DNA of 44,062 nucleotides from Candidatus Gastranaerophilales bacterium (GTDB lineage Bacteria > Cyanobacteriota > Vampirovibrionia > Gastranaerophilales > Gastranaerophilaceae): positions 1 through 44,062 of the forward strand of contig CALVEI010000011.1 of assembly GCA_944326515.1 (NCBI GenBank). The letters run 5' to 3'. The notes under the pieces were generated by a model. It was given only the letters and a program-made list of their open reading frames with translations, was not told the DNA's origin and ran no database searches. The position numbers and the translations under genes were made by a program. Positions 17,138 to 42,295 of this stretch are shown piece after piece (position 1 is the first letter of the stretch; each line of letters opens with the position of its first letter).

Positions 17138-17575
17138 ATGGTAGGATCAATAGGCTCAGTTTCGAGCAGTATGTTTCAATACTTGCTTTCGATGCCTTCG
17201 ACAACAGAATTTTCTCAAAATGTTAGTTTTGATAATGTGCTTTCTGGCAATAAGGTTGATAATCAGTCTGCTGCTGATTCGGCTTCAAATGCTGGTGGAA
17301 CTTCTTCCACATCTTCGTCATCAGCTAACAGTGAGATGGATTTAAATAATGATGGGCAAGTTACTATTGATGAGGTAATCCGTTATACTCAAATGCAAAT
17401 GACAGAAAAAATGTCTGAGCAAATGAGTTCTGAAGACGGAGCTTTTGAAATGGGGCAGCAAGCTCAAAATCAATTCAATGGAGTGGAAGAACTGAAAAAT
17501 AAACAGGCGGCAAGTGCATATAGGCTTAATCAAAACAGCTTTGTTGATATGATTACGTCAGGTTTTCTTGCTTGA
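17138..17575 (+). CDS. Hypothetical Ser-rich protein with one EF-hand loop
   Basis: 145 residues. The N terminus (MVGSIGSVSSSMFQYLL) is not a Sec signal. A Ser/Thr/Ala low-complexity stretch (about 42-64) leads into an EF-hand loop: D68, N70, D72, G73 and E79 occupy the calcium positions of a 12-residue loop. The rest is Gln/Met-rich and helical. Only one EF-hand is seen, as in dockerin-like or pairing proteins. SD AGGAGAGG precedes ATG 17138. Its composition resembles substrates of flagellar/type III-like export, but no export gene is visible. Function unknown. Confidence 0.72.
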   Translation: MVGSIGSVSSSMFQYLLSMPSTTEFSQNVSFDNVLSGNKVDNQSAADSASNAGGTSSTSSSSANSEMDLNNDGQVTIDEVIRYTQMQMTEKMSEQMSSEDGAFEMGQQAQNQFNGVEELKNKQAASAYRLNQNSFVDMITSGFLA

Positions 17576-17634: not shown

Positions 17635-17660
17635 AAAAAAAAAGACCTTTCGGCCTTAAA
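17635..17660 (-). terminator. Minus-strand terminator of the ruvX-DUF1292 operon
   Basis: Read on the minus strand: AAGGCC GAAA GGTCTT then nine T residues; the GAAA tetraloop is favourable. It lies about 130 bp after the DUF1292 stop. The 17576-17788 gap holds this hairpin, the 17765 palindrome and no ORF with an SD. Confidence 0.8.
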
Positions 17661-17764
17661 TATTTTGTGATTCCTCGTGTGTGGTAGATTTCTCGTCTCT
17701 AATTTTTATCCTCGTATATATATAAAGTATAGATTCAAGAAATAATTGCCACATAAGGAATATA

Positions 17765-22090: not shown

Positions 22091-23950
22091 TTAATATATC
22101 CATTGTTGATATGGTGATACATACAAGTCTTCAAAACCGAGCCCTGATTGCATTGGTGGTTGCATTGTTGTTACAGTGAATCCGTATGGATTGCTTGTGT
22201 ATTGGCTGTTTTGTGTAATGTATTGGTCTGCATTGTTTAATGCTTGTTGACTGTTGTTCATTGCGTTTATGTAAGCTTGCATTGCTTCTGCTGATTCAAA
22301 ACCGTATTGTTGAGCGTATGCATCAGCTTGTGCTTTTTCATCAATACCATCTACTTGTGCTGCCGGATTTGAAAGGTAGTAAGAACCGTATGCAAGTCCA
22401 ACTTGTGGTAAATGTTTTTGTGCAGCAACTTTATAATTTGCATTTCTTAAAATTTGTTTGTCTTTTACAATTGCCTTTTCAATTGTATTGATTCTTGCTG
22501 TAATATTTTCTTTTTGTGCATCAGTTGTAGCTGTTCTTAGTTGATCGTTTAATTTTGTTATGTCAGCTTCAGCTCTTTTAATGTTGTGTTGAGCAAGTTC
22601 GACTTCTTTTTGGGCTTTGATGCCTTTTAAAATATTTTGTTGTACTTTTATTTCTGCCTGTATTTTGGCTTTATCTTTGTCAGCAGCTGTTTTTAATTGC
22701 TCTTTAAGATTTTTAATGAAATTTTCTTTGGCTGCAATGTCTTTGTTGAAATTAACACGATAGTGGGCGTCTATTTCATTTGCAGATTTGTAGAATTCTT
22801 CTCTTACTGCTCTTAGTCTTGCTTTTTCTGCGGCAGATACAGAAGGATCAGCTAACTTTTTCTCTACTTTAGTGATTTGTTCTTCTAAAATATCTAGAGA
22901 TTTATTTTTTCCGTTATTTTTTAGTAATCTGTTTTCAGCAACAGTTCTTTCTTGTTTTAATTTTGCAATTTTTGCTTCTATTTCGCTTACTTTTTTTGCT
23001 GATGGTTTTGCTGCTAATTCATCATTAAGTTGTTTAATTTGATTGTCAATATCTTTGATATTTTTATTTAGTTTTTTCTCAAGAGCTTGTGTATAATTTT
23101 TGTGACCATTTTTGTAAGAGAAGGCTTCTGTCATATTAGGTTTAACTGTATTGTTATAGTATGCTCTTATTGCACGTCCTGATTGCATTGGGTGAGTAAT
23201 AAGTGCTTTGCCTCCTTTTATTGCTCCTGAACCTGCTATTTTGATGCAGTCTTTTGTTGCTCTTAAAGAACTTGTAATTGCATTGCCTTTTGGTATTGGG
23301 GCTCCAGCAGCTTTTAATGCACCTTTTGCGCCTGCAACCGAACCAACAAGAGCTGTTGTTCCGGAACCTATTTCTTGCCATGCTGCTTCAGCTTCTGCGT
23401 CGGTTTTTGCAGTGGCTGCTTTATATATGCCTTTTCCTGTTTGGACAGTTGCAATTGTTGCACCTGCTGCTACTAAAAATGGTGTTGCTGCACCACCTGT
23501 AGCGACTGTAAGAGCAACAGCTCCTGCAGCTACTGCTGCTGTTGTTAATGTTCGTTTCCAGCTAAATTTGCCATTTTCATCGCAAACCATTCCCTTAAAG
23601 AAGTTGCCAACACCTTTAACAAAGTTTTTACATTTTTTACCCAAGCTTATTTTGCCGTCATCTTGGCCGTCACCTTGTACGGTTGTTTGAACAGCTGCTT
23701 GAGTTGTTTGAGCGGCTTGTTGTGCTTGTATTTGTTGTTGAATTTGCTGTTGCTCCAACTGTTTTTGTTGCAACATTTGTTGTTGCAATTTTTGTTGCTC
23801 TTGTTGTTTTTGCAACAATTCCATTGTCTGTTGATATTTTTGTTGTTGCATTTGTTGTGCTTGTTGCATAGATTGCATCAAGTACATCCAATATAAACCA
23901 TTTTGATAATTAGATGGCAAATTAACGCCGTAACTCATTCCGAATCCCAT
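22091..23950 (-). CDS. Gln-rich coiled-coil protein with an Ala/Gly hydrophobic hairpin
   Basis: 619 residues, not recognised. Order: Met/Tyr/Asn-rich start without a Sec signal; residues about 24-85 almost half Gln; residues about 128-175 a small-residue hydrophobic stretch (AAVAAGAVALTVATGGAATP) able to insert as a membrane hairpin; about 270-490 a long Lys/Glu/Ala coiled coil; and a Gln/Asn/Tyr-rich tail ending SPYQQWIY. The layout (coil plus one hydrophobic hairpin, no signal peptide) recalls translocator or effector proteins of specialised secretion systems, but no homology is claimed. SD AAAGG lies a few bases before ATG 23950. It ends facing lgt. Confidence 0.75.
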   Translation of the reverse strand: MGFGMSYGVNLPSNYQNGLYWMYLMQSMQQAQQMQQQKYQQTMELLQKQQEQQKLQQQMLQQKQLEQQQIQQQIQAQQAAQTTQAAVQTTVQGDGQDDGKISLGKKCKNFVKGVGNFFKGMVCDENGKFSWKRTLTTAAVAAGAVALTVATGGAATPFLVAAGATIATVQTGKGIYKAATAKTDAEAEAAWQEIGSGTTALVGSVAGAKGALKAAGAPIPKGNAITSSLRATKDCIKIAGSGAIKGGKALITHPMQSGRAIRAYYNNTVKPNMTEAFSYKNGHKNYTQALEKKLNKNIKDIDNQIKQLNDELAAKPSAKKVSEIEAKIAKLKQERTVAENRLLKNNGKNKSLDILEEQITKVEKKLADPSVSAAEKARLRAVREEFYKSANEIDAHYRVNFNKDIAAKENFIKNLKEQLKTAADKDKAKIQAEIKVQQNILKGIKAQKEVELAQHNIKRAEADITKLNDQLRTATTDAQKENITARINTIEKAIVKDKQILRNANYKVAAQKHLPQVGLAYGSYYLSNPAAQVDGIDEKAQADAYAQQYGFESAEAMQAYINAMNNSQQALNNADQYITQNSQYTSNPYGFTVTTMQPPMQSGLGFEDLYVSPYQQWIY

Positions 23951-25814: not shown

Positions 25815-26696
25815 TTAAACAAGACTGTTATATTCATCAGTTAATGATGCGACACACCTACCCCAATTGACATTTAAGTTAGTTGGGTCATTATTTGCTC
25901 CGATTGGACAGTATTTTTCGTGAATTTGAGATACGGTGACCCTGCCTTGATTAATATAATTATTTCTCAAGTTTTTGGCTAACGATTCAAGACATGCATC
26001 TACGCTACTGAATGTCGCTAGTTCAGTGTAGTTGCTGGATGCGCTCATTATACCGGCTACATTGTTTTTTTCTACTGCTGCAGGGCTTGTTCCATATGTA
26101 CTTTCACTGTTTGCTATAGCTGCCATCATTGCTGCGCTTACTCCGTATTTTTCTTGTAATTCAAGGAGCTTTTGTCCTTTGCCCGCCAGAACACCTTTGA
26201 GGTGTTTGTTTAAATCTTCTGCCGTTCCTTTGTATAAGTCAGTTGCCTTTTGGTTGTAGTTGCCGTATTTTGCTGCAGGTATTACCGATCCTCCTGAGCT
26301 TCCGTTCGTACCAAAGTTGAAATTAAAATCGAATTGAGGCATTTTGTAATTTTTTACAAGTTCCATAAAATTGCCCCACATTTGGTTTATCATAGTTTGC
26401 TGCTGTTTAGCGTGCATTGCTTCCATAAGGTTAAAATTCATTGATGACAACCCAAACGGGTCAAAGTTCCCGAAAGTACTAAATTCGGGCATTATGAAAT
26501 TTGAACTGTTCATTGGGAATAAACCTCCCGTAGAGTACAACATAGGCGAAGGTGAAAAACCTCCACCTAAGAAGTTATTGTTCCCAAGAGCAAAAGGATT
26601 TCCTAAGGCAAACGAATTGTCAAACGTTGTTGAAGGTGCCAACGCAGGAAGATATTTCATATTCATTGTTGTGAAATCTATTTTATTTCCCGACAT
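25815..26696 (-). CDS. Glucosaminidase-like peptidoglycan hydrolase with FGN-rich N terminus and no signal peptide
   Basis: 293 residues. The N-terminal ~135 residues are rich in Phe, Gly, Asn, Met and Pro, with a short repeat FALGN-FALGN and FNFNF runs, and carry no Sec or lipoprotein signal. Residues about 150-293 resemble GH73/lysozyme-like glucosaminidase domains: KGTAEDLNKHLKGVLAGKG, KYGVSAAMMAAIANSESTYG (candidate catalytic E198), NNVAGIM, then ANNDPTN and a C-terminal V-x-Y helix. It would cleave the glycan strands of peptidoglycan. Export without a signal peptide is unexplained. SD AAGGGAA precedes ATG 26696. Confidence 0.75.
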   Translation of the reverse strand: MSGNKIDFTTMNMKYLPALAPSTTFDNSFALGNPFALGNNNFLGGGFSPSPMLYSTGGLFPMNSSNFIMPEFSTFGNFDPFGLSSMNFNLMEAMHAKQQQTMINQMWGNFMELVKNYKMPQFDFNFNFGTNGSSGGSVIPAAKYGNYNQKATDLYKGTAEDLNKHLKGVLAGKGQKLLELQEKYGVSAAMMAAIANSESTYGTSPAAVEKNNVAGIMSASSNYTELATFSSVDACLESLAKNLRNNYINQGRVTVSQIHEKYCPIGANNDPTNLNVNWGRCVASLTDEYNSLV

Positions 26697-26714
26697 AAAA
26701 TTCCCTTAGAATAT

Positions 26715-26743
26715 CCTATATATGAATAAAAACATATTGTTAA
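26715..26743 (-). promoter_or_regulatory. Candidate promoter of the glucosaminidase-like gene
   Basis: Minus strand TTAACA, 17-bp spacer, TATAGG (26720-26715), 19 bp before ATG 26696. Confidence 0.5.
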
Positions 26744-26837
26744 AAAAAATTGCCTAAAGACTTTTATAGATTTTGATTTCTGCTATCTTCATGTAAAAAT
26801 ATTGTCATTACTTATTTACACAATGGAAGCTGAAAAA

Positions 26838-40597: not shown

Positions 40598-42295
40598 ATG
40601 GTACAAGGTATCGGTCCAACTGGTGGAGATGGTGGTTCAATCTCAGGAATGGTTGAATATCAAGCCTTATATGCTCAGTATGAACAATACAATAAGAATA
40701 ATAAAGGTTCAGAACTATCTTTTGAGACTTGGCTTGCTATGACCGGAAAAATGGGATGGTTTAATAAATGGACTGAAAACTATATTGAGTCTGGCGGCAA
40801 GAATTTTTCTGATGGTGATGGTGTTTCTGGCAATACTATAGCCGGAGGTCGCCATATTTATGGAAATAATGATAGCGCAATATTTCAATCTCAAGATGAA
40901 GAGACTTACTATCAACTGGACTATGAAACAGGTGATTACAGGGTATTGCACGGAAATCAAGAATTGGCTGCTGCTTTGGGCTTGCCAGAAGGGACAAATA
41001 TTGATTTAGTTGAGTTTGGTACTTTATCTGCTCAAATTACAGATATTACTTTTGGTGAACTTGATGATGGTCAAGATTCTACAAGTTATAAAGTAGACGG
41101 AACCTATGGTAATGTTACGATGACTGACCAAGAGTTTGATATCCATTATATCCTTAATGCATTGTTAATGGATCCTACAGATCCTCAATACCAAATAGCA
41201 AAAGGGGTATTTGATAAATTGTGTGAAAATACAGATCAGTGGCTTCCTCAGTCTGATTTGGATATGCTGAATGAAGTAGCTGCACAGTATGGGACAGATT
41301 CTGCTGAGTATAAGGCAGTTTTAAAAGATGTGTTGTTGACGAATTTAGACCAAGCTAATGAGTGGGTTGAAGACCATACTCACGTTGCTCATAACCAAGC
41401 GTCTTTAGAAGAACTTGGCTCCAGCAGTACAAATGGTACCGGTAGTGCTGATGGTACCGGTAGTGCTGATGGTACAGAGAGTACAGAAACTTCAATTCCT
41501 GATTATGATCAAACAGACGTTTTAACAGCAGCTGGGTTGGCAAATGCATATTCAAGGGGTGATACACGAAAGGTTGAAAGTACCAATAACTCAGAAGGTA
41601 ATAGAAGAAAAGAACTACAAGCTCTAATGGATCAAGATTTAGATACAATTGCAAATGCTTTGATATCTGAATTGGGTGATCAAATGACTGATGAAATCCA
41701 GTCTTATATAAACAAAGCAAAGGCTGCTGTTGCAAGTAAATCAGAATTAATAAGGACTTGGTCTGAAAAACATGGCTTTTTGAATATGCACAAAAAGACA
41801 CTTGGTGAGTATTCAATAAAAGAAGTTGCCGATGCATTTTTTAACGAGTTTAACACACTTTGCGCTAATGGCGGTAAATCTACAGAAGAAGTAGCTGCAG
41901 AAGAACAAGCAAAACAAGAGCAAGCTGCAAAAGAAGAAGCTGTTTTTAAGGAACTTTATTCTATGGATATCAACTCAATAGCAAAAGATGCCGGTTTGGA
42001 TAAAGATCCACAGGTTGTGAGCCCTTCTTCTGCTGCGGATATTCAAGCTAAAGCTGAATCTGAAATTTTACAACCGTTGATGAATAAAATAAAATCTCAA
42101 TTATCTGGCAAAGGTGTATCTGATGCTGATATTGACTCAGCATTACAACAATGTGCTTCTTACGCTTTGTCTTATTGCACAGAATGGGCATCTACGTCTA
42201 ACAATTACGTTTACACAATAGACGCTGACAAGCTTATTGATAAGTTTGAAGAGGCTGTAAAAGAAATTGTTAAAAATAAAGGCTATGCGGTATAG
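40598..42295 (+). CDS. Large acidic hypothetical protein without signal peptide
   Basis: 565 residues, not recognised. Gly-rich start MVQGIGPTGGDGGS; residues about 15-270 mix short strands and acidic helices; residues about 277-295 form a short repeat of GTGSAD; residues about 340-420 are helical (QALMDQDLDTIANALISEL); the C-terminal third has an Ala/Glu/Gln coil and an ordered helix pair ending VKNKGYAV. No Sec signal, TM segment or lipobox. SD AAGGAG eight bases before ATG 40598. Its composition is like a secreted or surface protein. Function unknown. Confidence 0.75.
   Translation: MVQGIGPTGGDGGSISGMVEYQALYAQYEQYNKNNKGSELSFETWLAMTGKMGWFNKWTENYIESGGKNFSDGDGVSGNTIAGGRHIYGNNDSAIFQSQDEETYYQLDYETGDYRVLHGNQELAAALGLPEGTNIDLVEFGTLSAQITDITFGELDDGQDSTSYKVDGTYGNVTMTDQEFDIHYILNALLMDPTDPQYQIAKGVFDKLCENTDQWLPQSDLDMLNEVAAQYGTDSAEYKAVLKDVLLTNLDQANEWVEDHTHVAHNQASLEELGSSSTNGTGSADGTGSADGTESTETSIPDYDQTDVLTAAGLANAYSRGDTRKVESTNNSEGNRRKELQALMDQDLDTIANALISELGDQMTDEIQSYINKAKAAVASKSELIRTWSEKHGFLNMHKKTLGEYSIKEVADAFFNEFNTLCANGGKSTEEVAAEEQAKQEQAAKEEAVFKELYSMDINSIAKDAGLDKDPQVVSPSSAADIQAKAESEILQPLMNKIKSQLSGKGVSDADIDSALQQCASYALSYCTEWASTSNNYVYTIDADKLIDKFEEAVKEIVKNKGYAV
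41435..41476 (+). repeat. 18-bp tandem repeat within the acidic protein gene
   Basis: Two exact copies of GGTACCGGTAGTGCTGAT (41435-41452, 41453-41470) followed by a partial third unit (GGTACA). Each encodes GTGSAD, keeping frame, so copy changes would shorten or lengthen a linker. Confidence 0.85.

Follow-up and report, generated by a model that had tools for sequence, protein, structure and literature searches.

A signal-less predicted GH73 glucosaminidase of Gastranaerophilales and its possible export by a second, non-flagellar type III apparatus

In diderm bacteria, the Sec system is the normal export route of cell wall hydrolases. Among the closest described systems is FlgJ of Salmonella, which lacks a Sec signal and in which a rod cap is combined with a GH73 hydrolase. 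Here we analyse the gene of a 293-residue GH73 protein without a Sec signal (positions 25815-26696, minus strand) in a stretch of 44,062 nucleotides, hereafter the window, from a Candidatus Gastranaerophilales bacterium (GenBank assembly GCA_944326515.1, contig CALVEI010000011.1), together with the promoter-like element GCAATT-N17-TTTAT preceding this gene and a second flagellar-type export apparatus found in the order. The protein resembles FlgJ in its GH73-type fold (5dn4 being among the fold matches), in the absence of a Sec signal and in the flagellar-type export proposed for it; unlike FlgJ, it has no rod-binding domain, carries an unrelated head rich in phenylalanine, asparagine and glycine (F/N/G), and belongs to a family that persists in genomes without flagellin. 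Membership in FlgJ itself was rejected, as the head gave no Pfam match, no match to PF10135 was found in this genome (G000), and homologues occur in flagellin-less genomes. We consider it about as probable as not (roughly 0.5) that the protein is a substrate of type III export, most likely of the second, non-flagellar apparatus, and that it opens peptidoglycan.

Other described enzymes share parts of this picture. Phage GH73 endolysins (phrog_25820; the domain of Clostridioides difficile Ecd09610, 8yxk) have the nearest catalytic domain by sequence and likewise no signal peptide, whereas the protein described here has a chromosomal housekeeping context, the element, a head of its own and a spread across an order. 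LytB of Streptococcus pneumoniae and AtlE of Staphylococcus aureus share the GH73 domain and an aligned catalytic glutamate, but belong to monoderm bacteria, which export them as surface autolysins, and they carry wall-binding repeats. In Borrelia burgdorferi, too, FlgJ has a single domain and the wall-lytic enzyme, BB0259, is a separate protein, although it is an SLT transglycosylase that requires its Sec signal (PMC8517470). As for the apparatus, ancestral-type non-flagellar type III secretion systems, such as those of Myxococcales, also consist of a flagellum-derived export apparatus without motility genes (PMC3459982), whereas the one considered in this study is flagellar-type by score, retains FliE, is spread over at least two loci and occurs throughout an order of Cyanobacteriota. 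In most of the Gastranaerophilales known at the time, Soo et al. detected no more than part of the flagellar genes, and they inferred a loss of function; the export proposed here, if true, would give a reason for these partial gene sets in non-motile members of the order (PMC4040986). Our literature search retrieved nothing on non-flagellar type III secretion in Gastranaerophilales, which is not proof of absence.

A predicted glucosaminidase without a Sec signal

The open reading frame (ORF), running from an ATG to a stop codon at 25815-25817, is by sequence a GH73 glucosaminidase. Its catalytic region (residues 150-293; 25818-26249, minus strand) was recognised by Pfam, by the structure model and by fold and profile searches: PF01832 (Glucosaminidase) matched residues 177-249 with E 2e-9 and 38.6 bits (curated cut-off 30.2), and the relatives with solved structures retrieved by sequence and fold searches were LytB, AtlE and the C. 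difficile endolysin domain. In homologue and profile alignments the catalytic glutamate corresponds to E198 (codon GAA, 26103-26105, minus strand), which is unchanged across 14 of 14 homologues and pairs with E585 of LytB, the residue mutated to Q in 7pj4 (E585Q); the domain is predicted to hydrolyse peptidoglycan. A preliminary description of this DNA had proposed a glucosaminidase in the C-terminal half with E198 as candidate residue, and had considered that the homologues might prove inactive; the assignment is upheld and the catalytic glutamate is kept. Only the boundary had to be corrected, the catalytic domain beginning near residue 150, from which the AlphaFold model becomes confident, and not after residue 135.

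The head (residues 1-143; 26268-26696, minus strand), delimited by composition and by the structure model, is F/N/G-rich, charge-poor and predicted to be mostly disordered, with a low-confidence helix at residues 94-116. Phenylalanine, glycine and asparagine make up 37% of residues 1-135; in 81 background ORFs these three residues average 17% and do not exceed 28%. Charged residues account for 9%, against a background mean of 23% in the same set. While the enrichment first described is therefore real, the low complexity then attributed to these 135 residues is not uniform: residues 1-18 and 61-125 are kept in genus orthologues (54-63% identity, hardly any gaps), whereas residues 19-60 and 126-143 are variable (24-40% identity, 30-37% gaps). 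The conserved N-terminal stretch of residues 1-18 (26643-26696, minus strand) is, on the basis of the alignment, a candidate export signal. The earlier idea that the whole head might act as such a signal found no support, because related proteins carry LysM or EF-hand modules in its place; a signal near the N-terminus is more likely than one spanning the head.

No hydrophobic segment was detected, the best 12-mer of the first 45 residues having a Kyte-Doolittle mean of 0.55 and the best 19-mer of the whole protein 0.84. Judged by this simple hydrophobicity rule, which served as the signal-peptide test throughout, the protein has neither a Sec signal nor a transmembrane segment, in agreement with the preliminary description. 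A missed upstream start carrying a Sec signal, the reservation attached to that claim, was ruled out by an in-frame TAA (26706-26708, minus strand) situated 9 nucleotides 5' of the ATG, which makes a longer upstream start impossible. The sequence AAGGGAA (26701-26707, minus strand), immediately 5' of the ATG, resembles a ribosome-binding site.

With the alignment as query, homologues were identified in 66 of the order's 192 genomes, which represent 22 of its 45 genera, the data consisting mostly of metagenome-assembled genomes. Their N-terminal part constitutes an exchangeable module, which may be an F/N/G(/C)-rich head, a LysM domain at the extreme N-terminus or acidic EF-hand-like regions, and nearly all of these proteins, the LysM-first ones included, lack a Sec-like start. 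LysM-first proteins without such a start make sense only outside the cytoplasm. Homologues were found in the flagellin-less genomes G085, G127, G095 and G099, and the combination of head, GH73 domain and upstream element is present in G085 and G127, with an exact element, and in G095, with one mismatch, the only FlhA of these genomes being that of the second apparatus. Looking for the same type of head on other proteins, as had been recommended, yielded one good candidate: in the flagellin-less genome G034 (L129; G034:C3:199500-202000), an F/P/N-rich head preceded by the element is followed by a CHAP-like domain (Pfam match below threshold, E 0.008) instead of GH73.

A promoter-like element common to the genes of many signal-less proteins

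The sequence upstream of the GH73 gene is almost identical among orthologues with 56-86% protein identity. Comparison of orthologues and genome-wide site counts delimited the element GCAATT-N17-TTTAT at 26726-26753 (minus strand), where it belongs to the GTTTTTAT class. This form has 61 sites in this genome, its reversed control 6, and two main classes can be distinguished among the sites, GTTTTTAT and TACTTTAT; the stricter pattern GCAATT-N14-K-TTTTTAT gave 24 exact sites. A first version of the motif, TGTTTTTATNNATATANAGGATA, was abandoned (8 sites against 4 control sites), the two-box version performing far better. The first-class element had 2-22 exact sites in nine other genomes of the order, flagellin-less ones included (controls 0-1), and the class-level outgroup without FlhA and FliP had two sites in 4.3 Mb, neither of them preceding an ORF.

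In this genome, a hydrophobic N-terminus was found in only 2 of the 36 ORFs behind both element classes, versus 25 of 90 background ORFs (Fisher p 0.007). One of these two cases has the element inside an apparent membrane-protein coding region (L058, cf. L082), and the other is a short, doubtful ORF. The products encoded behind the element are mostly of unknown function, and comprise LysM-first proteins, EF-hand proteins, coiled-coil paralogues and a metalloprotease-like protein. Serine, threonine, asparagine and glutamine account for 34% of their N-termini, against 22% in the background, a weak indication of the composition expected of type III substrates; the GH73 protein itself agrees with that expectation in having no hydrophobic N-terminus. 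A further element gene lies about 1.6 kb 3' of the fliI of the second apparatus. By means of the element, the candidate secretome can be listed for any Gastranaerophilales genome.

A few sites without an ORF run into terminator-like hairpins, which fits a promoter. One of these is the second copy in the window, retrieved by the site search (17722-17749, minus strand; ACTTTAT class), which is followed after about 70 nucleotides by a hairpin with a T-run (17636-17656, minus strand); the arrangement is similar at L233 and L235. The interval 17636-17749 (minus strand) possibly encodes a small RNA; it gave no match in Rfam, and its fold is not more stable than those of shuffled sequences.

A second flagellar-type export apparatus

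Two types each of FlhA and FliP occur in Gastranaerophilales. The second-type FlhA, about 700 residues long, matches the FHIPEP model at about 670-730 bits, and the second-type FliP has about 220 residues. One or the other was found in 58 of 58 genomes of the order in the relatives set, this genome included; five incomplete assemblies (75-88%) were without one of the two, and the second-type FlhA was recovered from 20 further genomes, in one of them split over contigs. Near-complete flagellin-less genomes have the second type only. The corresponding loci (L031 and L125 in this genome, on contigs C1 and C58; L034, L126 and L127 in relatives) encode homologues of FliE, FliF, FliH, FlhA and FliI and, elsewhere, of FliM/N, FliP, FliQ and FliR. 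Most of these proteins fall under both the flagellar and the Sct equivalog cut-offs; the second FlhA scored 688 bits with the FlhA model versus 584 with that of SctV, each below its own cut-off, and does not reach Sct membership at the equivalog level. An export gate is thus present without flagellin, as expected of a non-flagellar type III system, and the ATPase was observed in this genome. Between the fliQ and fliR of the second apparatus lies a gene for a 120-residue Sec-like protein without a relevant family match. The protein in the fliG position had no NCBIfam match and is not claimed as FliG.

A third FHIPEP match was also noted: a 486-residue protein (L033:185-1645; G000:C110) that contains only the cytoplasmic half of FlhA (about 300-655) behind a different N-terminus, and that has homologues of about 490 residues in most relatives.

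If the GH73 protein is exported by the second apparatus, its gene would share a dedicated promoter, GCAATT-N17-TTTAT, with the genes of several dozen proteins, most of them signal-less. Under this hypothesis, a short N-terminal signal would steer the protein, still unfolded, into the gate of FlhA, FliP, FliQ and FliR; the head, disordered and F/N/G-rich, would serve as a spacer or assembly module; and the GH73 domain would cut peptidoglycan beyond the inner membrane, allowing the apparatus or its cargo to pass the wall. More tentatively, and with somewhat less confidence than in the case of the single protein, we propose that the order has a flagellum-independent apparatus of flagellar type, present throughout, with a dedicated promoter class that drives a signal-less secretome of several dozen proteins, including peptidoglycan hydrolases that combine interchangeable heads (F/N-rich, LysM, EF-hand) with one or another catalytic domain (GH73, CHAP-like). 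Co-regulated signal-less proteins for binding and cutting the wall point to a dedicated non-Sec route in these widespread, hardly cultured bacteria of animal guts.

Several observations weigh against export by the second apparatus. Inspection of its loci identified neither a secretin nor a rod, the whole genome not having been searched for a secretin, and no exact element is present at its own operons. Since the apparatus is found order-wide, presence and absence cannot tell whether a link is functional or due to common descent, and the outgroup without FlhA and FliP is a single genome. Distant homologues (e.g. L196-L205) have no good copy of the element, and a moderately hydrophobic segment of theirs, at about residues 35-55, may be a long signal peptide. 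Furthermore, small DNA-binding proteins of the RHH (CopG-like) type lie behind the element in three genomes (L062, L150, L096, L214), where they are possible regulators of the regulon, and one protein with a Sec signal was found behind it in G024; because of both, the element marks a regulon and not a pure secretome.

Alternative routes and the gene neighbourhood

The preliminary description had suggested either an undescribed export route, on the model of the flagellar-type systems used for FlgJ, or release by lysis. A non-Sec route is supported indirectly by the shared element and by the one or two flagellar-type gates in the genomes examined, but the protein is not FlgJ itself. It might still be that the protein is the wall hydrolase of an ordinary flagellum, opening peptidoglycan for the rod by way of the flagellar gate, as the C-terminal half of FlgJ does. 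This genome does encode flagellin and a flagellar-type FlhA, one homologue (L049) is flanked by two flagellin-like genes, and the recognised FlgJ of the order is a short frame of the rod-binding part only (about 96-170 residues in clear cases), so that a separate hydrolase would be needed. However, homologues and element persist in flagellin-less genomes, no homologue was found in the flagellated genomes G001, G014 and G022 of the same genus, and in this genome a signal-less lytic transglycosylase of the SLT type, its gene carrying an ACTTTAT-class element (L128:11506-12282; G000:C43), lies beside flagellar fliP/fliQ/fliR/flhB. We therefore regard the flagellar route as unlikely. Flagellin_N domains were also observed within very long open frames of 1395-2085 residues, with 23 flagellin-like matches in one genome (G110:C16, G012:C35, G191).

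Release of a cytosolic protein by lysis, for instance of a domesticated phage endolysin or a bacteriolysin kept without export, we likewise hold to be doubtful. Endolysins commonly lack signal peptides, phage matches exist, and among PHROG families the best match is one of endolysins (E 2e-15); nevertheless, the phage matches are confined to the catalytic part, 34-38% of the protein, with identities of 28-38%, and the element is common to many unrelated, non-lytic proteins. The neighbours of the gene are housekeeping genes (signal peptidase, polyprenyl synthetase), an adjacency kept at several orthologues, and no holin was seen among the neighbours of the gene or its orthologues. A prophage endolysin was rejected on the grounds of these neighbours and of the merely partial phage matches.

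A nanotube-like or otherwise novel path, or a cryptic Sec-type signal, is improbable, even if the distant homologues may have long signal peptides, given that the hydrolase LytB of published nanotube work has a signal peptide and reached the surface even without CORE, and that the GH73 protein is devoid of any hydrophobic stretch.

Elsewhere in the window, a gene at 22091-23950 (minus strand) encodes a 619-residue protein with a Q/M-rich N-terminal head and no Pfam match, which adjoins the GH73 gene also in the closest relative (L037). Two proteins encoded on the plus strand, at 17138-17575 and 40598-42295, have no Sec-like start and an N-terminus rich in serine, threonine, asparagine and glycine, the former with a weak EF-hand match.
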